The position numbers and the translations under genes are program-made. DNA of 41,332 nucleotides, from positions 1 to 41,332 of the IMG/VR virus record IMGVR_UViG_3300009788_000178. One strand, written 5' to 3'. Within the stretch, counting starts at the first letter, position 1. Every line of letters starts with the position of its first letter. The DNA is from a virus. The notes beneath the pieces were generated by a model. The model searched no databases. It was given only the letters and a program-made list of their open reading frames with translations, and was not told the DNA's origin. Positions 4,449 through 36,548 of the stretch are shown piece by piece.

Positions 4449-5120
4449 ATGCCACATGTGCCACAACGCGAACAAGCACGCTATATTGATAACCTCGGCT
4501 ATTCGATCATCTCGCATTCCGGGAAGATAGATGACGCCCCGTTACGCATCCGCCACCTCGCCCGCGAAATGCTTGAGGCGGGGTTCTACGCGGTTCACCT
4601 TGAAACTCGTGACGTGTTAGGCCCCTACAGTGGGTCAGATGCTATGGTTGTGGGTAACGTGTTCCATGCTTTACTGATCGAGCAGTTAAAAGCTGCCGGA
4701 TACGCTTTGATCTACGTGCGCTCAGATGGTACTGCGGAGTGGGATGACCTCACCTTTGATGGCAAACTGCCCAGGGGCGGTCTTGTTCCGGGGTTCTATG
4801 TCATTTCTTACACCCGGAAGTCAGATAATTACGGCCCCGTGAGTGTTGCGGAAGATGTCTTGCAAGAGGCTGCGCTGGGATTGGGCTGGCTTCTGGGCTT
4901 CACTATTGATGATAAAATCCATCAACGCAATATTCAGGTTGCGGCAGGGGCTATCGCTCTTGATCTTTATGAGTTTGTAGCGTATCTTTACACCCATGCT
5001 CACGAGATGCTGGAATTTGATGGTGGTGATGAAATCGTGCGTCTTCAGGAATGGGCAGCAAACTTGGAACATGTTGTCCAGACTGTTGCGGAGACGCTTG
5101 ATGAAACAATGCCAGGGTAG
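4449..5120 (+). CDS. Hypothetical protein overlapping tRNA-Thr
   Basis: A 223-residue protein starting MPHVPQREQARYIDNLG. I chose ATG 4449 because it follows a promoter and an AAGGGAG site, whereas in-frame codons upstream lie before the transcript start. It is an alpha/beta protein of no family I recognise. The middle (YALIYVRSDGTAEWDDLTF) looks like a beta-sheet core. The C-terminal part (from about VSVAEDVLQEAALG) is helical and ends in a probable coiled coil. The last codons (encoding MPG) and the stop TAG form the first ten bases of the tRNA, an unusual sharing of sequence. Confidence 0.7.
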   Translation: MPHVPQREQARYIDNLGYSIISHSGKIDDAPLRIRHLAREMLEAGFYAVHLETRDVLGPYSGSDAMVVGNVFHALLIEQLKAAGYALIYVRSDGTAEWDDLTFDGKLPRGGLVPGFYVISYTRKSDNYGPVSVAEDVLQEAALGLGWLLGFTIDDKIHQRNIQVAAGAIALDLYEFVAYLYTHAHEMLEFDGGDEIVRLQEWAANLEHVVQTVAETLDETMPG

Positions 5121-5183
5121 CTCATCAGGTAGAGCGCCTGTTTTGTAAACAGGGGGTAGCGGGTTCGAGTCCTGCTCCTGGCT
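5111..5183 (+). tRNA. tRNA-Thr (anticodon UGU)
   Basis: A complete 73-base cloverleaf. The acceptor is GCCAGGG with TCCTGGC. The D arm is GCTC/GAGC. The anticodon stem CCTGT/ACAGG encloses the loop TTTGTAA with anticodon TGT. The variable loop has five bases. The T arm is GCGGG-TTCGAGT-CCTGC. The discriminator is T, and CCA is not encoded. It would read ACA and, through wobble, other threonine codons. Its 5' end overlaps the stop of the preceding gene by ten bases. Confidence 0.92.
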
Positions 5184-18685: not shown

Positions 18686-20701
18686 TCAGTATCCTAACCT
18701 GTCATCACTATCCAATTTTGAGTTGTCTAAAAGAAAAGCGTTGAAGCGGCCTATGTGTATAGCGGTGTAAGCCATTGTGAAGTCACCTTGTACCCATGTG
18801 CCATCTCGCCCCATAATTAGGTGGCGGACGGCGTTTGTACCTGTGCGTGTATCTGTCAAGTCTACCGTCGTCCCGATGGATAAATTCAACATGCGGGCAT
18901 AGTACGCTGCATCACGATCATGTAGAGCAAGAGTCTTAAATTCACCAAACGGTTCTTTATATCGAGCGATAAAAAACTGGGCCAGACCTACGGCCTCCGG
19001 CTGGGTGTTCAACAGCTTAAACGTCTTAGTTAATCGCTGCAACCTAAATTTATCAACGCTTTCTTGATCGCGCTCTTCTATAATTTGCCCCCCAAAACTA
19101 CGCACCGCTGTACCTTTTAGGATAATACGATAGGGCCTTGTTTCCGAGCCGTCATTTGTAATCGTCAGTTCTGCTTCATCGTTTGTTAATACCGTCACCA
19201 ATGTCGTGCTGGCGACATAATTGGCGGCGGTATCAAAATCCACAATGAGGTGTGTACCATCAAGTGCGGACATGTTGATGCTGGTACTCTCTTCGTATTC
19301 AAAGCTCGCATTTATTACAACGGTTTCGCCCGCATCGATCAGAATAGCTTGGCGATTCTCCCACGCTGTAAAATCCGCCTCTTCGGTTTTCGGGTAAAAG
19401 GTGAATTTAGCCTCGTTAAATATTTGCTGGCCGTATTCATAACCCGCATCATGGAAATCAGTTCCCGCATTGAGTGAGAAATCAGCGGAACCGCCCTGTT
19501 TTAATAGAACATACCAACGATTACGAAACTCAAGTTGTCCGGTCTCAGTGAGCCATAGAATACCCTGTTCAGTGTCGATGATTTCAGCCAGAGCATCATA
19601 CATACTGTCATCACTATTCCAGTCATCTCCCACAATCGGATACGTATCTCGGCCTGTTTCAATAATCCCATATTTATTCCCTAGAAATCCTGTGGGGTCG
19701 TTAGCAGAGACCCATGCACTATCATCAATGATCTGTTGCGTTGCTGCGCCGCTGTCTACATCTTTTTGAATGGCGGATTTGAATTGGGCCTCTTTAAGTA
19801 GGAAAATGCCCTGCTCACACTTTAACGTGCATTTTTCTGACCGATTCCGCCCCGTCGCAGGAGAGAATTTGGATGTCCAGCCTGTCCACATTAGTGTGAA
19901 CGTGCCTACCGTGCTGTCTGCTACCTCGATAGTAAGCATACGTCGAGACAACAGAAAACCAAAGAGCGGGGATGTGGTTTTCTCAGGAGAATATTTTTGG
20001 TCTAGGTTGTCTAAATTGACCGTAGCGGCCCCTTCAGCAGCGATAAGGAGATCACGATCAGGGATGCCCATGTCCCATTTTGCATTACGGATGTCCGCAC
20101 TCACGTTATCGTGCCCGTTAGTGGCGTCTCCCGCGTTAAAACCTGCTGGGCCTGCGGCGCTGTCTTGAGTCATCATCCATCCAGTGATGTCATAGTCTAC
20201 ATCAGTGGCGCTACTATCCTTACGATGGATGAAATATACAAAAGTGTCGCCCACCCCTGTCGTAAATAAAAACTCGATGCGTTGATAGCTGGTTGTCAGG
20301 ACGTGCGTACCGGACGTACCAATGACCGCGTCGCCCTGGTCACGCACTTCAACCTCAAAATCAACCCCGGCATGCCCTGTATTACCTTTGACCCAAAAAA
20401 CGAGCGCGTAGTCTGTTTCTGCACTGACGGCAATCTCGTCAATCGAGCCACCATCTTTACCGAAACTCATGCCTGCGGATAGTCCGGTACTGGTCACGAC
20501 ATTTGTATGTTGCAGGCCGTAGAGCGTGCGCCCCTTAACAACTGTAAGAGTTGAAGTATCGACTGCCGCACGAGCTATGCTCGTCCACGTCGTGGGAGTA
20601 GGGATGAGGTTTAAGTCATCAATAACCAGCGCCTCATAACAAACGAGTCCGTCATCGTCCCAGTCAATGCCTACACGAATGTCAGTACGAAAATCAACCA
20701 T
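18686..20701 (-). CDS. Large tail protein following the tape measure (671 aa)
   Basis: A 671-residue protein that starts in a TAATG overlap with the tape measure stop. Residues about 50-200 form a beta-sandwich resembling a carbohydrate-binding module (DYALVFWVKGNTGHAGVDFEVEV). A later section (QILIDAGETVVINASFEYEES, DDEAELTITNDG) is also beta-rich. It is the first long gene after the tape measure, where distal tail and tail-tip proteins usually lie. Position, not a specific motif, is the main support. It may help attach the tail to the host surface. Confidence 0.7.
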   Translation of the reverse strand: MVDFRTDIRVGIDWDDDGLVCYEALVIDDLNLIPTPTTWTSIARAAVDTSTLTVVKGRTLYGLQHTNVVTSTGLSAGMSFGKDGGSIDEIAVSAETDYALVFWVKGNTGHAGVDFEVEVRDQGDAVIGTSGTHVLTTSYQRIEFLFTTGVGDTFVYFIHRKDSSATDVDYDITGWMMTQDSAAGPAGFNAGDATNGHDNVSADIRNAKWDMGIPDRDLLIAAEGAATVNLDNLDQKYSPEKTTSPLFGFLLSRRMLTIEVADSTVGTFTLMWTGWTSKFSPATGRNRSEKCTLKCEQGIFLLKEAQFKSAIQKDVDSGAATQQIIDDSAWVSANDPTGFLGNKYGIIETGRDTYPIVGDDWNSDDSMYDALAEIIDTEQGILWLTETGQLEFRNRWYVLLKQGGSADFSLNAGTDFHDAGYEYGQQIFNEAKFTFYPKTEEADFTAWENRQAILIDAGETVVINASFEYEESTSINMSALDGTHLIVDFDTAANYVASTTLVTVLTNDEAELTITNDGSETRPYRIILKGTAVRSFGGQIIEERDQESVDKFRLQRLTKTFKLLNTQPEAVGLAQFFIARYKEPFGEFKTLALHDRDAAYYARMLNLSIGTTVDLTDTRTGTNAVRHLIMGRDGTWVQGDFTMAYTAIHIGRFNAFLLDNSKLDSDDRLGY

Positions 20702-23700
20702 TATCGCCCCGCTCGTTGCAGGTCGATACCCAATTTCCGAAGCTCAAACAGGATAGTCTCCATGTCATGAGCCTCTTCGATGAGGAGTGTATCGATATAG
20801 GTTGAACTTCCAGCACTCCCGTTTCCAGCAGTGGCCGTAGGTATGATATGTCCGGGCGTGCCTGGGGAGAAGAGTTCAGGCCCCTGTTCCCCCACTATAT
20901 AATATTCATTAGCGCGGACAGGGCCGCCAGCGGCGCGTGTGCCACCAAAATCAGTGTTTCCCGGAACCAGTCCCCCGGCTTCTAGAGCGTGCAGACGCAG
21001 TATAGAACCAATCAACGCTCGGATAGCAAAATCAGCGTCGTTTGCTGCGCGTTTAATGATTAAGAAACTATGATTTAAGGCGGCAGCAAACCCCCCTACC
21101 GAGGCGCTAATTATTGGCCCCATTGTTGCAGACACCGCCACCATGTTCCCATAGGTTGTCGAATAATGCTGGAAGAAGTCTGTAAGCGCCACATACGCTA
21201 CACCAGAAGGCGCAGCAAACGCATCTACCATCGCATCACGAATGGGAGCAACTAGTGTTTCAGAAATTTGTTCTGGGGAGCCTTCCCCCGCCGCCACTGC
21301 CTCAGCAAAAGCGGCTTCCATCGGCGTAATTGTCGCGACGGCCAATTCTTTGGCTATTGTTTTACCCGCAAGGTCTGTAGGAATAGATTCGGCAAACGCG
21401 GTAAGCAAGTGTCCGGTATCGGAAGCTGCAATAGCTATTCCCAGATCAGAGACCATATCTGTGGCAGCGACAGCCATTTCATTTGACATATCAAATTCAC
21501 CAGCCGCGATTGAGGCCGCTAAATCTTGTCGAAGCGCGAGTCCGAAATCAGCCCCTGCCCCTTCTGGAACCGTAAGCCACATTTCGTCTTCATCCAAGCC
21601 GACTGTAATTAGACTTGCATCGAAGCCAACCATGTTGGCAGCATTATCCATAATGCTTTGGATACGTTGAGCAATAGCTTCAGGCGCAGCCGCCCCCCCT
21701 TCACGGTCTGCGCGGAGGCTGCGGGCGAACTCATCGTCAATTAAGCCACCAATAGCAGCAATACCTGTTAATAGACTGTCCTCAAGTCCAGCCCGCCACT
21801 CATCAATTTGCTGATCGCCGGGTACAAATACATCAAGGACGGCTTGCCCAACCCAATCTCGCTGAGACTGACTCATATGTTTATAAATAATGATACCAGC
21901 AACCACCCCAGCAAGGGCGGCTCCGATTGTGGTAGTTAGAAAAGCAAAACCTGTTCCTCTTATGTACATAGCAATAGACGTACCTATCTTCATTACAAAG
22001 GGCGCGGCTACTTTGGTTGTAAAGGCTATAGTCATGCTGCCCGCCAACATAGCGGCGCGAACAGCGCCCACGAAAACAGGGCCGATGCCGCCTATAATCG
22101 GAAGGATATAGCTAAGAGTCGCAGCGGTCGCTATGCTTCCTGCAATCGCAGCGATGACTGTCTCACCAATACTCAGATCAGCGTCCCCAATTGCTCCAGT
22201 AAAGCCTTCAAAAAATGGTTGTATAGCGGAGTCCACGACGGCATTCGCTTCGTTTTCAGCGTCTCCTCCCATGATACTGTTAAATAGGCTACCGATGCCC
22301 CCAGCAATTGCGGCGGCAACTTCGCCCATCACAGTACCAAAGGCACGAGAAAGCGTGGGAACCCCCACCTCGATCAGCCAATTCCCTAGATTCGTAAATA
22401 GTATCTTGCCTGATGTTTTGAATGCCGTCCACGAGGCTGCAAGTTGGGGGGAAATCTTCTCGATCAATTCTGTACGTAAGAACTGTCCAATACGTGGAGC
22501 AACCGCGTCAATGGCCGCGAGAAAATTCCCTTCAAATAGCTCTTCGATCCCCGTTTGTATTTCAGTGCCTTCACCGCCTTCTACAGTGAACCATCCTGCA
22601 ATAGTGGTCATCAATTGTGAACCAATATTAAGAGCAGTCGGAAGACCCGTATCTAATACCCAGTCACGTATTTTGGTCATGAGGTCATAAATAGCGGGCT
22701 TAACAATACCCCATGCCTGTGTGAACGCCTGCCCCACACGCTCTCCAACAGTCATGCGTCCTTCTTCAGCCCAACGCTCCAGATTTACGTTGTCTATCCA
22801 ACGGTCGAACTTCCATTGATCCATGCGTGTGCGCCCTTCAATGGGCACAGGCAGGCTGAGGACGGAACCCGCTTGAATAAGCCGGGCGTCTGAAACTCCT
22901 AAGCTATCAAGAGAACGCGCTAGAAAATCCTCATAAGTAAAAAGACGCTGTAAATCTTTAGTGAAATCACTGCGGTAATATAAATTCCACAAATATACCC
23001 CGGCTTCAATGGGTATCTCAATTGTCCCAAACCCCTCAGCCGGAGTCATGATCTCCCCGATTACGTCTGTGAAGTCAGGAATTTCTGCGGGGTCAAACAC
23101 ATCAGCAAAAAACCCAAGAACGGCAGTTTTAATCGTATCGAGCGGCCCAGTAATCGCAGTTGACGCTTCTTGGATCGCGTCTTTCATGCCCCCGAAGTTA
23201 GATTGATAGAGCGTACCCAACCCCACAACCGCGCCCACGATCAATGTTAACGGGCTGATGAGGGATGTCAGTCCCCAGATCAGAGGCCCTACGGCGGCGG
23301 CTGCCGCCGCGAACGCGACGGCGCTGCTTAGTACCGGAGCAGGAAGTCTTGTAACACTAAGAGCCAGTTCCCGGATGACGTTCAGGAATGGAAAGAGGTG
23401 CGGCATGATCTTATCACCGATGACAATAGCCGCTGACCGCAATGCAGAGGTGGTCAGATCAACTTGAGCAGCGAAAGATTTCATCTGCTCTTCATGCGCT
23501 ACCATCGTAGCGCCTTCAACCGCCTCATTAAACTCGTCAACTGAGGCGGTATAAGCATCAATATTGTTGATGAATGTGCGTGCAGCCCTGGCAGCGCGGA
23601 CTTCGTTAAACGCTTCCGCCAATGCTTCGGGGGTGTCTCCAAGCGCATCGTTCACAGCTAACAAAGCGTTTCTGAGATCACCATTATGGATTTGTAAAAG

Positions 23701-24471
23701 CTCTCGACCAGATGCAACACCCAATACTTGAAAAGCCTCACTCATCTTTTCAGTGGGTTTAAGTAATTTCCGCATCACTCCTGCAAGGTTTGTAGCCGAA
23801 CGACTCGCTCCTGATCCTTGTTGAGTTAAAAAGGCCCAGTGTGCTCCAAGCTGGTTAACTTCAACGCCTAGCGCGACCGCATCGGGAATAACCAGTCCAA
23901 TCGCACTGGCAAACTCTCCCATTTCTCCTACGCCAACCTGTACAGTGCGCGTCAGCATATCGCTGGCTTCCGCCGCAGTAATATTCTCGCGTCCATACGC
24001 CAAAATTAGGGCGGTTAATGCCTCGGTCGTTGTATTAAGGTCAGCCAGCCCCGCTTCAGCCGTGAACGCTGATTGTTCCATCAAAGCAAGGGCTTCAGAG
24101 GTGACATTAATGCCGGAAGAGAATACAGTGTATAAAGATTCTGCTGCGGCTTGGGGGCCGGAACGTATTTGTGCGCCGAAGTTGAGGACTTGGTTGGAAA
24201 GATCGGCGAATTCCGAGTTGGTCATTTGCTGGATGGAACGCACATTCGCCATAGCTGCGTCGAACTGGGATGCAAAATTAACCGCTGCTGTTCCAGCGGC
24301 TACAAGCGGCACTGTAAGACCGAATGTGAGGTTACGACCGATACGAGAGAGGCCACTGAGTTTGTCAGACAGCAGCCCTACGTCACCTCGAACCTCTCGC
24401 ATGGAGCGGCGGAAGTTGGTGATGTCCGCACCAACTACCGCCTCAAGATATGCTATCCGCTGTGTGGGCAA
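20701..24471 (-). CDS. Tail tape measure protein (1256 aa)
   Basis: The longest gene of the window. The N-terminal 350 residues carry the TP901-type tape-measure core (FASQFDAAMANVRSIQQMTNSEF, then ALTALILAYGRENITAAEASDML). The middle has several hydrophobic stretches of the kind found in tape measures (VAFAAAAAAVGPLIWGLTSLISPLTLIVGAV and around residues 770-870). The start is TTG 24471, which abuts the stop of the frameshifted chaperone. The next ATG is 23 codons later and would lose the conserved YLEAVVGADITNF. As a rough rule (about 1.5 angstrom per residue) the tail would be near 190 nm. It sets tail length and is ejected with the DNA. Confidence 0.93.
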   Translation of the reverse strand: MPTQRIAYLEAVVGADITNFRRSMREVRGDVGLLSDKLSGLSRIGRNLTFGLTVPLVAAGTAAVNFASQFDAAMANVRSIQQMTNSEFADLSNQVLNFGAQIRSGPQAAAESLYTVFSSGINVTSEALALMEQSAFTAEAGLADLNTTTEALTALILAYGRENITAAEASDMLTRTVQVGVGEMGEFASAIGLVIPDAVALGVEVNQLGAHWAFLTQQGSGASRSATNLAGVMRKLLKPTEKMSEAFQVLGVASGRELLQIHNGDLRNALLAVNDALGDTPEALAEAFNEVRAARAARTFINNIDAYTASVDEFNEAVEGATMVAHEEQMKSFAAQVDLTTSALRSAAIVIGDKIMPHLFPFLNVIRELALSVTRLPAPVLSSAVAFAAAAAAVGPLIWGLTSLISPLTLIVGAVVGLGTLYQSNFGGMKDAIQEASTAITGPLDTIKTAVLGFFADVFDPAEIPDFTDVIGEIMTPAEGFGTIEIPIEAGVYLWNLYYRSDFTKDLQRLFTYEDFLARSLDSLGVSDARLIQAGSVLSLPVPIEGRTRMDQWKFDRWIDNVNLERWAEEGRMTVGERVGQAFTQAWGIVKPAIYDLMTKIRDWVLDTGLPTALNIGSQLMTTIAGWFTVEGGEGTEIQTGIEELFEGNFLAAIDAVAPRIGQFLRTELIEKISPQLAASWTAFKTSGKILFTNLGNWLIEVGVPTLSRAFGTVMGEVAAAIAGGIGSLFNSIMGGDAENEANAVVDSAIQPFFEGFTGAIGDADLSIGETVIAAIAGSIATAATLSYILPIIGGIGPVFVGAVRAAMLAGSMTIAFTTKVAAPFVMKIGTSIAMYIRGTGFAFLTTTIGAALAGVVAGIIIYKHMSQSQRDWVGQAVLDVFVPGDQQIDEWRAGLEDSLLTGIAAIGGLIDDEFARSLRADREGGAAAPEAIAQRIQSIMDNAANMVGFDASLITVGLDEDEMWLTVPEGAGADFGLALRQDLAASIAAGEFDMSNEMAVAATDMVSDLGIAIAASDTGHLLTAFAESIPTDLAGKTIAKELAVATITPMEAAFAEAVAAGEGSPEQISETLVAPIRDAMVDAFAAPSGVAYVALTDFFQHYSTTYGNMVAVSATMGPIISASVGGFAAALNHSFLIIKRAANDADFAIRALIGSILRLHALEAGGLVPGNTDFGGTRAAGGPVRANEYYIVGEQGPELFSPGTPGHIIPTATAGNGSAGSSTYIDTLLIEEAHDMETILFELRKLGIDLQRAGR

Positions 24472-25010
24472 TTAACGTTTCCCCCGTTTGCGCCCGCGCC
24501 GTTTGGCTGCCAACTGCTGAGAGGCAGCATTACGTTTCTTCGCCTTATTTTCGGCTTTGGTTTTGCCCGCGTCATACGAGAGCATGTCTCCCAAATCCTG
24601 CACGTTCGTGTTGTCGATTTCTTCCAGTGTATGTCCTGCCCAGAAGAGTTGCCCACGAATGAGCCTGTAGGCGATGTCATCAGGTGGGCTTTGACCGAGT
24701 AGCAGACTTCGGTAAGCCCACTGCGCTAGTTTCCCTCAGAGAACGCATCCTGGATTGCTCGATTGATCGCACCGAAGATTTGAAGGGTCTGTAAGAAATT
24801 GACTTCCGCGATACCATCTTCAGAAACCTCAGCCTCAAACGGCCACGCTGTAACAACTTGAAGAATGTACGGAACACACTCCTCAAACATTTCAGAACTA
24901 GCCGAGACTTGATAAGCCTGATAATCTGAGCGCATCCAGTTTGAAAGGTTGATGATGAATCCATCATCAACCGAAGCGTTGACTTTGGGACTATTGCGGC
25001 GCTTTGCCAT
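24472..25010 (-). CDS. Tail assembly chaperone, -1 frameshift product (gpGT-like)
   Basis: Slippage at GGGAAAC (24735-24729) shifts the ribosome to the -1 frame. That frame is open for 86 further codons (first residues LAQWAYRSLLLGQSPPDD, last residues KRRGRKRGKR) to the TAA at 24474-24472. The fusion is about 180 residues. The added T-type domain is helical and ends in a very basic tail. Its own frame contains no plausible independent start, so frameshifting is the only evident way to express it. In lambda the fusion makes up a few percent of the product, and the ratio matters for tail assembly. Confidence 0.85.
24684..24735 (-). promoter_or_regulatory. Programmed -1 ribosomal frameshift signal
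   Basis: Three textbook parts lie in order on the minus strand. The slippery heptamer GGGAAAC is at 24735-24729, in the correct phase (G GGA AAC). A seven-base spacer follows. Then comes a stem-loop in which GTGGGCTT (24721-24714) pairs with AAGCCCAC (24691-24684) and ACCGA (24713-24709) pairs with TCGGT (24698-24694). The zero-frame stop follows the heptamer immediately. Confidence 0.9.
24726..25010 (-). CDS. Tail assembly chaperone, short form (gpG-like)
   Basis: A 94-residue protein preceding the tape measure, with AGGAG before its ATG. It is helical and acidic, ending AINRAIQDAFSEGN at a TAG just after the slippery heptamer. Size, position and the frameshift signal identify it as the lambda gpG counterpart. 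It probably binds the tape measure and recruits tail tube subunits during assembly. It is absent from mature virions in related systems. Confidence 0.85.
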   Translation of the reverse strand: MAKRRNSPKVNASVDDGFIINLSNWMRSDYQAYQVSASSEMFEECVPYILQVVTAWPFEAEVSEDGIAEVNFLQTLQIFGAINRAIQDAFSEGN

Positions 25011-25056: not shown

Positions 25057-25470
25057 TTAGACAGATACTCCTGTTTCACGCCCGATGACATACAACGATG
25101 TCGTAGACAACGCTAAGCCAACGATTGTGGCGAACGCATTAGCCGTAGCCGCGTCCGCAAAAAGCCCTACCTGTCCCTCAGTCGCCCCCTCGCCCAAGTA
25201 ATAAGACTCACCCGCGCTCAGGCCGCTGACAGTGAGTACACTACCTGGACGGGCATACGTGATCGGCTGGTTAGCCGCGTTCGTTGCGTTAACCGCAACA
25301 CCCGCCATATCAGCGGTGTTAGCAGCAACGGCATTTGCGATTTCCACAGTGCCATTGGCAAGCTGCCGCACCACAAGTCCAGCCGCGATTGCTTCTGAAC
25401 ATAGGCGGGTCTCGGTGTTGATAAGCCCCCCTGTAGGGGTAAGCGTGTTTGGTAAAGCTGCAAAAGCCAT
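25057..25470 (-). CDS. Putative tail or capsid decoration protein (137 aa)
   Basis: A 137-residue Ala/Thr/Gly-rich protein lying between the tail tube gene and the chaperone. The pattern resembles DUF2190-type phage capsid-cement proteins: TETRLCSEAIAAGLVVRQ, then ANTADMAGVAVNATN and SGLSAGESYYLGEG. Those proteins decorate HK97-type capsids, but they usually lie next to the capsid gene, so a tail decoration is equally possible here. No Cys-rich or membrane feature is seen. Structural role likely, target uncertain. Confidence 0.65.
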   Translation of the reverse strand: MAFAALPNTLTPTGGLINTETRLCSEAIAAGLVVRQLANGTVEIANAVAANTADMAGVAVNATNAANQPITYARPGSVLTVSGLSAGESYYLGEGATEGQVGLFADAATANAFATIVGLALSTTSLYVIGRETGVSV

Positions 25471-25482
25471 ATTAACCCCCTA

Positions 25483-25917
25483 TCAAGGAACTGTACTGCC
25501 AATTTCATCAATCATGGCTCCCTGACGCTCACCACTGATGTCAATTTCCAGCACGCCGTCGAACGGGAAGTCCTCGGAATACTGAGTTAAGACACAGTTA
25601 AAGCTGAATGTCGGCAACCCTGTTGTTTTACCTTCAGGATATACACTCAACTTACCTGTCGCTCCCGGCAAAATGTCGGCAGCATAGGTTTGGTTCGCGT
25701 CGAAGAACATGATAGAGAAGTCAGCAGCTTCGATTGTAGTTTTCGGAAACCGAGTCGTCTCATTTCCCGCCGTCACATCGACAGTATCAAACTGACGATT
25801 AAAACTGAACGTAGTAAAGTCGGACGTAAGAATCTTTTCGTCCACACCGGGCGTTCCGCCTGTCGGCAAAAACTCTACGACTATGTTGGTTCCGATTAAT
25901 CGGTCTGTCGGAGCCAT
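25483..25917 (-). CDS. Major tail tube protein
   Basis: A 144-residue protein with the layout of siphovirus tube proteins. It has an N-terminal strand (NIVVEFLPTGG), TFSFNRQFDTVDVTAGNE, FSIMFFDANQTYAADIL and a C-terminal GVLEIDISGERQG. The length and position two genes before the chaperone fit. The subunits form stacked hexameric rings around the tape measure. No Ig-like extra domain is present. Confidence 0.75.
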   Translation of the reverse strand: MAPTDRLIGTNIVVEFLPTGGTPGVDEKILTSDFTTFSFNRQFDTVDVTAGNETTRFPKTTIEAADFSIMFFDANQTYAADILPGATGKLSVYPEGKTTGLPTFSFNCVLTQYSEDFPFDGVLEIDISGERQGAMIDEIGSTVP

Positions 25918-27752: not shown

Positions 27753-28895
27753 TTACGAGAATGGAGCAGTGCTGTCAGCCAGCAATTGGACGCCACGCTC
27801 CGGTCGCCAGCCACCTTCAGCATAGACCATTGTAGCGTTCAATTCTGTCCAACGTTGCGACGGATCGCGGTCTGGTTCGATACGTAACCCGCGCCGCATA
27901 TCAAGGGCCTGAGCATCACGACCAAACACACCCGCCGTCGAAGACGCCGAGCCTTGTGTAGTAGTGGTGACAGCGGGCGTACCGCCAGTCAAGCCCCCAC
28001 CATCAATCGTCATTTCAGGAACATTGCGACCCGCGTACTGCCCAGCAAACGTCGCAATCCAGGGTTCAGTCGCGCTAGCAACTGTGACATCCCCTACATT
28101 AATATTCGAGAGAGCTTCCAAAGCGGTCTGAATGACCGTGTTTGCCGCGTCGAAGGCGATAGCTCCGGTTGTCTGCCCGTTGAAGGTCAGAGTAAACGTA
28201 CCCGCCGAAGAACCCGCAGTTGTGATCGACTGTACCTCATTGATGACCGTGCGGGCCAACAGCGAAGAAACGATAATACGCAGATCAGCATACTGCGTGA
28301 CGTAGTAATTGCGGACAGCGGTATTACGAATGTCCAGCGGAGCGGGCGTAGCCAGCGCCGTGAAATCCGAGAAGATGTCCAAATACTGGTATGTGTGGAT
28401 GACCGCTGTATACGGGCCAGGAACAGCGTTTGCTTCCAGAAGCGCACGCGCTTCCATTAAAGCCCCCGTGCTCATGTCCGTTGTAGCCAGCCCTTGAGTC
28501 AGCTCAAAACTCGTGAAGCGGGCCAACAGGTCGGTCTCCAACTGTTTACCAATCGTGTAGCCGATGTCCAGGGCAGCGTCAGCCATCACGTCTTCGAGGT
28601 CAGATTCGACGCGTCGATCAGTGATAATAAACTGCTTACCAATTTCTTTCGGCGTCAGTGTGCTGCGCAAATCACGATCAAACGGCACTGTAGTCAGATC
28701 AGCCGTTTCAGCGAGATTATCCTCAACACCAGTCTCAATGTACAACGTATTTTTACGCGGCACAAAACCTGTCTGGTCTGTAAACGTCCGTACAACGGAC
28801 GGCATTACAAAAGCGTGTTGAGCATAAAAGAGCGCAGCTTCCCAGATGTCTGGTAAGACATCCGAGATAAGTGCAAAAGTGCTCTCGTTAGCCAT
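27753..28895 (-). CDS. HK97-fold major capsid protein with inserted Ig-like domain
   Basis: A 380-residue capsid protein. Residues 45-215 show the HK97-type E-loop and P-domain pattern (LYIETGVEDNLAETADL, TPKEIGKQFIITDRRVESDLEDVMADAALDIG, FTSFELTQGLATTD). Residues about 219-318 form an inserted beta-sandwich: GTFTLTFNGQTTGAIAF, IQTALEALSNINVGDVTV, then a FAGQYAGRNVPEMTID motif. This domain occurs as repeats in bacterial surface proteins and in some phage capsids. It should protrude from the shell. The A-domain resumes with RDAQALDMRRGLRIEPDRD. It lies between scaffold and adaptor genes. Confidence 0.85.
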   Translation of the reverse strand: MANESTFALISDVLPDIWEAALFYAQHAFVMPSVVRTFTDQTGFVPRKNTLYIETGVEDNLAETADLTTVPFDRDLRSTLTPKEIGKQFIITDRRVESDLEDVMADAALDIGYTIGKQLETDLLARFTSFELTQGLATTDMSTGALMEARALLEANAVPGPYTAVIHTYQYLDIFSDFTALATPAPLDIRNTAVRNYYVTQYADLRIIVSSLLARTVINEVQSITTAGSSAGTFTLTFNGQTTGAIAFDAANTVIQTALEALSNINVGDVTVASATEPWIATFAGQYAGRNVPEMTIDGGGLTGGTPAVTTTTQGSASSTAGVFGRDAQALDMRRGLRIEPDRDPSQRWTELNATMVYAEGGWRPERGVQLLADSTAPFS

Positions 28896-34944: not shown

Positions 34945-35403
34945 TTACCCACCAATCTCTGTAATAACGCCTGTGATCGTCACAGCGGGGGTTCCCGCAG
35001 CGGCGGCAGGCGTCTTAATAACAAGAACACCAGACGGACTAAGTACGATTGTTCCGGTAGGTGTTGGAAAATCACGCCAACCATTCAGCACGTTTTCCCA
35101 CAGTTCCCAGAGCAATGTCAGGGTTGTAGCCTCAGTGCTGTTCTGGCGTAGGATAGTGCCCCCAAATGCGGGGTCTCCGACTTCGACGGGCCGGGCAGTG
35201 ACGGTTGTGCCGCCACTACCCGCAGTCGTGGCTCGCTGAAGGTTGACGCGAAGCTGTTCCGAAGTCTCCTGGTCGGTAGTAATTCGTAAATCTTCGATAA
35301 TCACTACAGCGTCCGAGGGGGCCAGTATTTGTAAAATCTCATCCGCACCTGCGGGAAGCGAGAACGACCCGGATGCGAACCTATACGATCTTCCTATGGT
35401 CAT
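34945..35403 (-). CDS. Hypothetical virion-associated protein (152 aa)
   Basis: The 152-residue protein starts MTIGRSYRFASGSFSLPAG at ATG 35403, five bases after the upstream stop and preceded by AGGATG. An in-frame start further upstream would overlap the previous gene by about 80 bases. It is beta-rich with Thr/Gly/Ala stretches (TTAGSGGTTVTARPVEVGD, TPAAAAGTPAVTITGVI). It resembles small phage appendage or decoration proteins in composition only. It lies in the fibre-like gene cluster before the terminases. Confidence 0.65.
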   Translation of the reverse strand: MTIGRSYRFASGSFSLPAGADEILQILAPSDAVVIIEDLRITTDQETSEQLRVNLQRATTAGSGGTTVTARPVEVGDPAFGGTILRQNSTEATTLTLLWELWENVLNGWRDFPTPTGTIVLSPSGVLVIKTPAAAAGTPAVTITGVITEIGG

Positions 35404-35405
35404 AG

Positions 35406-36548
35406 TTACATCCTGTAATGCGGTAAATTTCTGACTGAGGATAAAGTGGGTACAGGCGGGAATGGTTCGGGCGCAGCCGCCGCCCAAGGGCCGCCCGCGT
35501 CGCTGCTGCTGTCGGTGCGGATTGTCAGCGTCTCTGCTGCGTGCATGTGTGTATTGTTCGATGTAATATGAATTTGGAAGCGATCGTCAACTGAACCCGA
35601 CGCCGGATTCCAACTGTTGTTGCTTGCGGCATGAACGCCCGTGCCTGAAAATGGCGTTTGGTCATCTAGAGCAGAGTCTTGTAAGGTGCAAGATGAATTA
35701 ACGCGGGCGAACCCGTCTGCGTTAACCCCAAAAAACAAATCTCCGCCCGCTTCAACGATGTTCATGTTGCAAAACCAGGGATCGCCCACAGAGGCCACAG
35801 GCCAGTCTGAAACACCAGGGACGCCGGATAGGGATGTGAATGCAAACACCGATTCATTTGCTTCCGCAGCGACACTGGCGGCCAAATCCTGGCTGGTCTG
35901 ACCGCTTTCATCCAGCTTGCGAAAGAAGTCAGCGCCGGGGTCACAATCGCTATTTGATGTATCTGGCGCATTGAGCAGGAAGGTCACGGTCTGCGCACTA
36001 AAGCGCATAAATACGCCTTCAAGCCACGCGTCGCGATTATCTTTTGGGAAGGCGTCTAACTCTTTGACCAGCGCATTATCAGCCCAACTACCATGTCGAA
36101 TCAACGCCTCACGCGGTTTGACAAACTCGTTAAATGGCCTTATCTCGCAAGGGCCGCCCGTCGTTTGAACACCCGCCTCCGGCAAGCGCGCCAGATAATC
36201 GGCCCCCCCAAAAATTGCGCAGCCCTGGCGCGTGTTGCCAAAACTGCCGTCAAATACATCGAACTCCCAAACCTTGCCCCACACCTCACCCGGCGCGTAA
36301 TCATCGGGATCATCATTCCAATGGTAAGCTGTGATGCGCCGGGTTATGGGGTCAAATTCGATGGCATAATGATCGGCGCGCATGACCACGCCCTGGATAT
36401 TCATGCCATAAACCCAGCCCTCACCGGTGTCGATCAATTCGCCGCCAACAGGTTCAGCCAATTTGGGCAAGAACTCCCAGTCGGAGGCATTAACATTTTC
36501 CCAGCTTTTTGCCGGGCGCGTTGTCCAGTGTATACCAACATGTGTCAT
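35406..36548 (-). CDS. Hypothetical virion-associated protein (380 aa)
   Basis: A 380-residue protein starting MTHVGIHWTTRPAKSWENV. It is rich in Trp, Gly, Asp and aromatic residues and looks like mixed beta folds (GWVYGMNIQGVVMRADHYAIEFDPITRRITAYHWNDD, QIHITSNNTHMHAAETLTIRTD). The second half has a Cys/Gly-rich stretch. I see no catalytic motif. It sits between two beta-rich genes and before the repeat protein, so I infer a fibre or receptor-binding role. This is weakly supported. Confidence 0.6.
   Translation of the reverse strand: MTHVGIHWTTRPAKSWENVNASDWEFLPKLAEPVGGELIDTGEGWVYGMNIQGVVMRADHYAIEFDPITRRITAYHWNDDPDDYAPGEVWGKVWEFDVFDGSFGNTRQGCAIFGGADYLARLPEAGVQTTGGPCEIRPFNEFVKPREALIRHGSWADNALVKELDAFPKDNRDAWLEGVFMRFSAQTVTFLLNAPDTSNSDCDPGADFFRKLDESGQTSQDLAASVAAEANESVFAFTSLSGVPGVSDWPVASVGDPWFCNMNIVEAGGDLFFGVNADGFARVNSSCTLQDSALDDQTPFSGTGVHAASNNSWNPASGSVDDRFQIHITSNNTHMHAAETLTIRTDSSSDAGGPWAAAAPEPFPPVPTLSSVRNLPHYRM

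Follow-up and report, generated by a model that had tools for sequence, protein, structure and literature searches.

A GGGAAAC heptamer and downstream hairpin point to lambda-type G/GT frameshifting ahead of a phage tape measure gene

Introduction

Is the short interval that separates a small tail gene from the tape measure gene in this viral genome translated as an extension of that gene, reached by −1 programmed ribosomal frameshifting? In the established lambda model, both gpG and gpGT associate with the tape measure, and it is the T domain that brings in the major tail subunit (PMC5009743). Although the ORFs show low similarity between phages, the G-T shift itself is widely conserved (PMC5009743). 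The window analyzed here, 41,332 bases long, is a virus record from IMG/VR, for which an initial annotation based on the DNA letters proposed a lambda-like G/GT arrangement. We conclude that the locus is very probably a −1 programmed frameshift of the lambda G/GT type, i.e., a new instance of a known system. This reading is supported by the position before the tape measure gene, the heptamer, the stem, the coding statistics, and the layout found in relatives of the tape measure.

Results

The minus strand of the window carries genes for terminase, portal, scaffold-like, and capsid-like proteins, a weakly matching major tail protein, G, T, and the tape measure protein (Table 1). The last of these matches PHROG 991 (1.5e-51), Pfam PF10145 (3.2e-19), and NCBIfam TIGR01760 (4.4e-25), and its first residue aligns with the annotated start of the HJTV-4 TMP. 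Two ORFs characteristic of G/GT systems lie between the major tail and tape measure genes, the second being start-less and in the −1 frame, and an extra small gene (25057-25470) occupies the space between the putative major tail protein, which is the likely partner of the T domain, and G. The putative chaperone role of G and GT, and hence their name, is based on this position and layout.

Table 1. Coordinates of the G/T locus and its flanking tail genes
Feature	Position	Strand	Details
Tail tape measure protein	20701..24471	(-)	TTG start directly after T stop codon
−1 frame T extension	24472..24735	(-)	87 codons from GGG; TAA 24474-24472
Stimulatory hairpin candidate	24684..24721	(-)	8 bp, 2-nt bulge, 5 bp, 10-nt loop
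Spacer, heptamer to stem	24722..24728	(-)	TAGCGCA, 7 nt
Zero-frame TAG	24726..24728	(-)	adjoins heptamer, zero bases between
Slippery heptamer G GGA AAC	24729..24735	(-)	−1 re-pairing to GGG AAA; direct sequence reading
TGA closing −1 frame	24736..24738	(-)	directly 5′ of GGG
Gene G, zero-frame tail assembly chaperone candidate	24726..25010	(-)	ATG 25010, TAG 24728-24726, 94 aa
Putative major tail protein	25483..25917	(-)	weak match phrog_10528, 2.3e-4

Elsewhere in the window, residues about 211-308 of the capsid-like protein (27753-28895, minus strand) match a segment that recurs in hypothetical and minor tail proteins of actinophages, suggesting that a shared domain was inserted or fused here. 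The phage also encodes a tRNA-Thr with anticodon TGT (5111-5183, plus strand). The closest terminases in genome contigs come from Chloroflexota MAGs in nearly all cases, at about 40% identity, which suggests, without proving it, a host in that phylum.

Rereading of the minus strand reproduced the elements of the proposed signal: the GGGAAAC heptamer in the correct X XXY YYZ phase with TAG as the next codon, the seven-base spacer on its 3′ side, and the stem of 8 + 5 bp. By computation, the frames of G and T overlap solely over the heptamer and the stop, i.e., 10 nt, and the TGA directly upstream shuts the −1 frame, so that a shift, if any, must occur at the heptamer. The genes of the window contain 23 in-phase heptamers of the form XXX(A/T)3Z in 11,220 codons, and only GGGAAAC combines an adjoining stop with a −1 frame that is open for 87 codons. 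A second heptamer, AAATTTA near 35430, is in phase 15 nt before the stop of a 380-aa gene and is followed by 161 open −1 codons (34945-35487, 35406-36548, minus strand). It was set aside as a probable chance occurrence, since an ATG near 35402, preceded by AGGA, is available to the next gene as its own start.

The hairpin consists of a lower stem of 8 bp (GTGGGCTT/AAGCCCAC) and an upper stem of 5 bp (ACCGA/TCGGT), separated by a 2-nt 3′ bulge (CA) and capped by a 10-nt loop. Folded alone, it reaches −18.6 kcal/mol, within the best 0.5% of 38-nt windows, and the z score of the region is −2.7. We recoded the local −1 peptide synonymously at the codon usage of the phage in 5,000 versions, of which 0.28% attained equal folding stability (i.e., the hairpin beats 99.72% of them), so the constraint of encoding this peptide is unlikely to explain the structure. 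A stable RNA structure beyond the coding constraint is thus located 7 nt 3′ of the heptamer, the expected distance being about 5-9 nt. Searches for a pseudoknot partner of the hairpin loop yielded none that was convincing (at most 6 pairs including G-U), and an Rfam search returned no relevant match.

Downstream of the heptamer, the −1 frame has the length proposed in the initial annotation, whose figure of 86 open codons runs from the lysine codon AAA onwards (87 are counted from GGG), and its TAA indeed abuts the tape measure TTG, which begins at the next base. The predicted GT fusion is 179 aa long, with the junction ...SEGK-LAQWAY... Codon usage in T is that of a coding sequence: its log-odds of +0.12 to +0.13 per codon fall inside the range of the genes of the phage, its coding score exceeds that of 99.6% of stretches from non-coding frames, and the codon score of G likewise resembles those of the phage's genes. 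The AlphaFold2 model of T, built from single-sequence input, is helical with a mean pLDDT of 75. Foldseek returned no significant match for it, tail assembly chaperones being listed only at E above 1; the model of G was poor (pLDDT 51) and was left unused. Past the TAG, the zero frame contains a 75-aa ATG ORF (24453-24680, minus strand) with strongly non-coding codon usage, which an automatic gene caller might report instead of the T extension.

Neither G nor T matched any entry in Pfam, PHROG, NCBIfam, PDB, or phage records. Viral contigs queried with the G, T, tape measure, and capsid sequences yielded no new relatives, and a DNA polymerase search retrieved distant ones only (23-31%). The corresponding TerL search recovered one near-identical fragment (L003; 4,417 bases, 3 mismatches, no gaps), which ends short of G and the frameshift signal, whereas none of the hundreds of TerL relatives (up to about 44%) had a convincing G or T. 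Similarity to Microcystis phage Mae-JY09 resides chiefly in the capsid-region genes and is weak in portal and tape measure. A doubtful similarity between G and the G-like protein of another locus, L054 (33% over 49 columns, E 7e-4 against one hand-picked target), is weak and was not relied on; the layout of the reading frames in L054 was unclear. Since low ORF similarity is usual in G/GT systems, the lack of a family match for G and T does not exclude membership.

The tape measure gave access to more distant loci. Among 400 genomes drawn from the phylum of the Anaerolineae bacterium behind locus L092 (Chloroflexota), 17 carried a distant tape measure homologue. We picked by eye 13 pairs upstream of related tape measures, each made up of a G-like and a T-like ORF overlapping in the −1 frame, from lists that also displayed heptamers; 12 of these pairs are from Chloroflexota (L262-L281) and one is from a viral contig (L261). 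All 13 have their second ORF in the −1 frame. An in-phase heptamer occurs within the overlap in 11 of the 13, against 0.45 expected from the coding sequence of the same loci, the exceptions being L262 and L273, whose overlaps have no canonical heptamer. The nominal Poisson value of 1e-13 overstates the certainty of this excess, since the pairs were picked by eye and some of the loci are related to one another, but the excess is still large.

The Chloroflexota pairs resemble the phage in that a −1 T ORF overlaps the end of G and a related tape measure follows, with an in-phase heptamer in 10 of the 12. They differ from it in their longer overlaps and in the heptamers themselves (CCCAAAC, AAAAAAG, GGGAAAG, and more), which usually lie 20-70 nt before the stop, whereas GGGAAAC abuts the stop in the phage. 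In virus vir515, for which the host given is Methanosarcinales, an unannotated −1 ORF fills the gap between an annotated gene and the tape measure (L188, 1664-2367), and GGGAAAC is in phase 177 nt before the stop.

Discussion

The arrangement shares with lambda G/GT (−1, G_GGA_AAG) its location before the tape measure, the −1 direction, an XXXYYYZ heptamer near the end of G, and a T-like extension running up to the tape measure gene. The lambda heptamer ends in G, whereas that of the phage ends in C with the stop directly after it, and sequence similarity between the G/T proteins of both phages is not detectable. In the haloarchaeal virus HCTV-1, the same heptamer, G_GGA_AAC, has been reported as the g-t shift site (PMC5009743); heptamer and role, which this comparison covers, are shared, and the difference lies in the archaeal host. 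Exiguobacterium phage vB_EauS-123 (L186) has a related tape measure (26% identity), the same 10-nt overlap, a heptamer abutting the zero-frame stop, and a T that ends just before the tape measure. However, its heptamer is AAAAAAA, and its proteins are not alignable with those of the phage by sequence search.

Three other accounts of the locus deserve consideration. G and T could be one gene interrupted by an assembly or sequencing error, given that a single inserted or deleted base at GGGAAAC would fuse the frames and that one assembly only covers the signal region. We regard such an indel as very improbable: the break coincides exactly with an in-phase heptamer that is accompanied by the adjoining stop, the correct spacer, and a non-random hairpin, and a second assembly, L003, agrees with the window without gaps along its whole length, though it stops short of the signal. 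A second product might instead arise in the zero frame, by readthrough of the TAG or from the ATG ORF at 24680-24453, with no −1 shift involved. The 90 open codons past the TAG, which include that 75-aa ORF, would allow it. Nonetheless, their log-odds of about −0.28 (−0.284) per codon are like those of non-coding frames, against +0.126 in the −1 frame, and the zero frame runs into the start of the tape measure gene, whereas the −1 frame ends cleanly at it. Such zero-frame expression is therefore hardly credible.

Alternatively, re-initiation or internal initiation could yield T as a protein of its own. An overlap of a few bases is indeed what translationally coupled genes display, but the first half of T contains no ATG, GTG, or TTG, which bears out the initial claim that the extension has no start of its own. 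Moreover, T made alone would be devoid of the G domain through which, in lambda, it is linked to the tape measure, and its separate synthesis leaves the heptamer and the stem unexplained. We therefore hold independent initiation to be exceedingly improbable.

For the preferred reading, −1 frameshifting at GGGAAAC, the following course of events can be proposed by analogy with lambda. Most ribosomes would terminate at the TAG after translating G. In a minority, paused at the hairpin with GGA in the P site and AAC in the A site, both tRNAs would slip back by one base to pair with GGG and AAA, and 85 further codons would be read in the −1 frame to yield the 179-residue GT fusion. G and the G part of GT would then coat the tape measure, and the T part would recruit the major tail subunit. 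Slippage, translation of the −1 frame, and the efficiency of the shift with the resulting product ratio are predictions from the signal and the coding statistics.

The last base of the heptamer bears on that efficiency. In the E. coli constructs reviewed, A_AAA_AAC promotes far less shifting than A_AAA_AAG (PMC5009743). GGGAAAC is shifty on mammalian ribosomes. Judging from the E. coli data, slippage with AAC in the A site could be poor in some bacteria; that the strong hairpin may compensate for the weaker AAC is a guess. A further possibility, which we think unlikely, is that the ribosomes and asparagine tRNA of the host (perhaps Chloroflexota) slip efficiently on A_AAC, and that the "mammalian-type" site, the strong hairpin, and the abutting stop together raise the GT:G ratio well above that of lambda.

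The locus represents a very clean case of G/GT frameshift organization, from a phage almost without relatives in the databases. Annotators should join both frames at such loci, since the T half lacks a start codon and is overlain, in the wrong frame, by a spurious 75-aa ORF. The G/T −1 layout commonly precedes related tape measures in genomes of Chloroflexota, a phylum that receives no mention in the small sample of G/T frameshift literature used here for comparison. The present locus offers a lead for surveying Chloroflexota phages.
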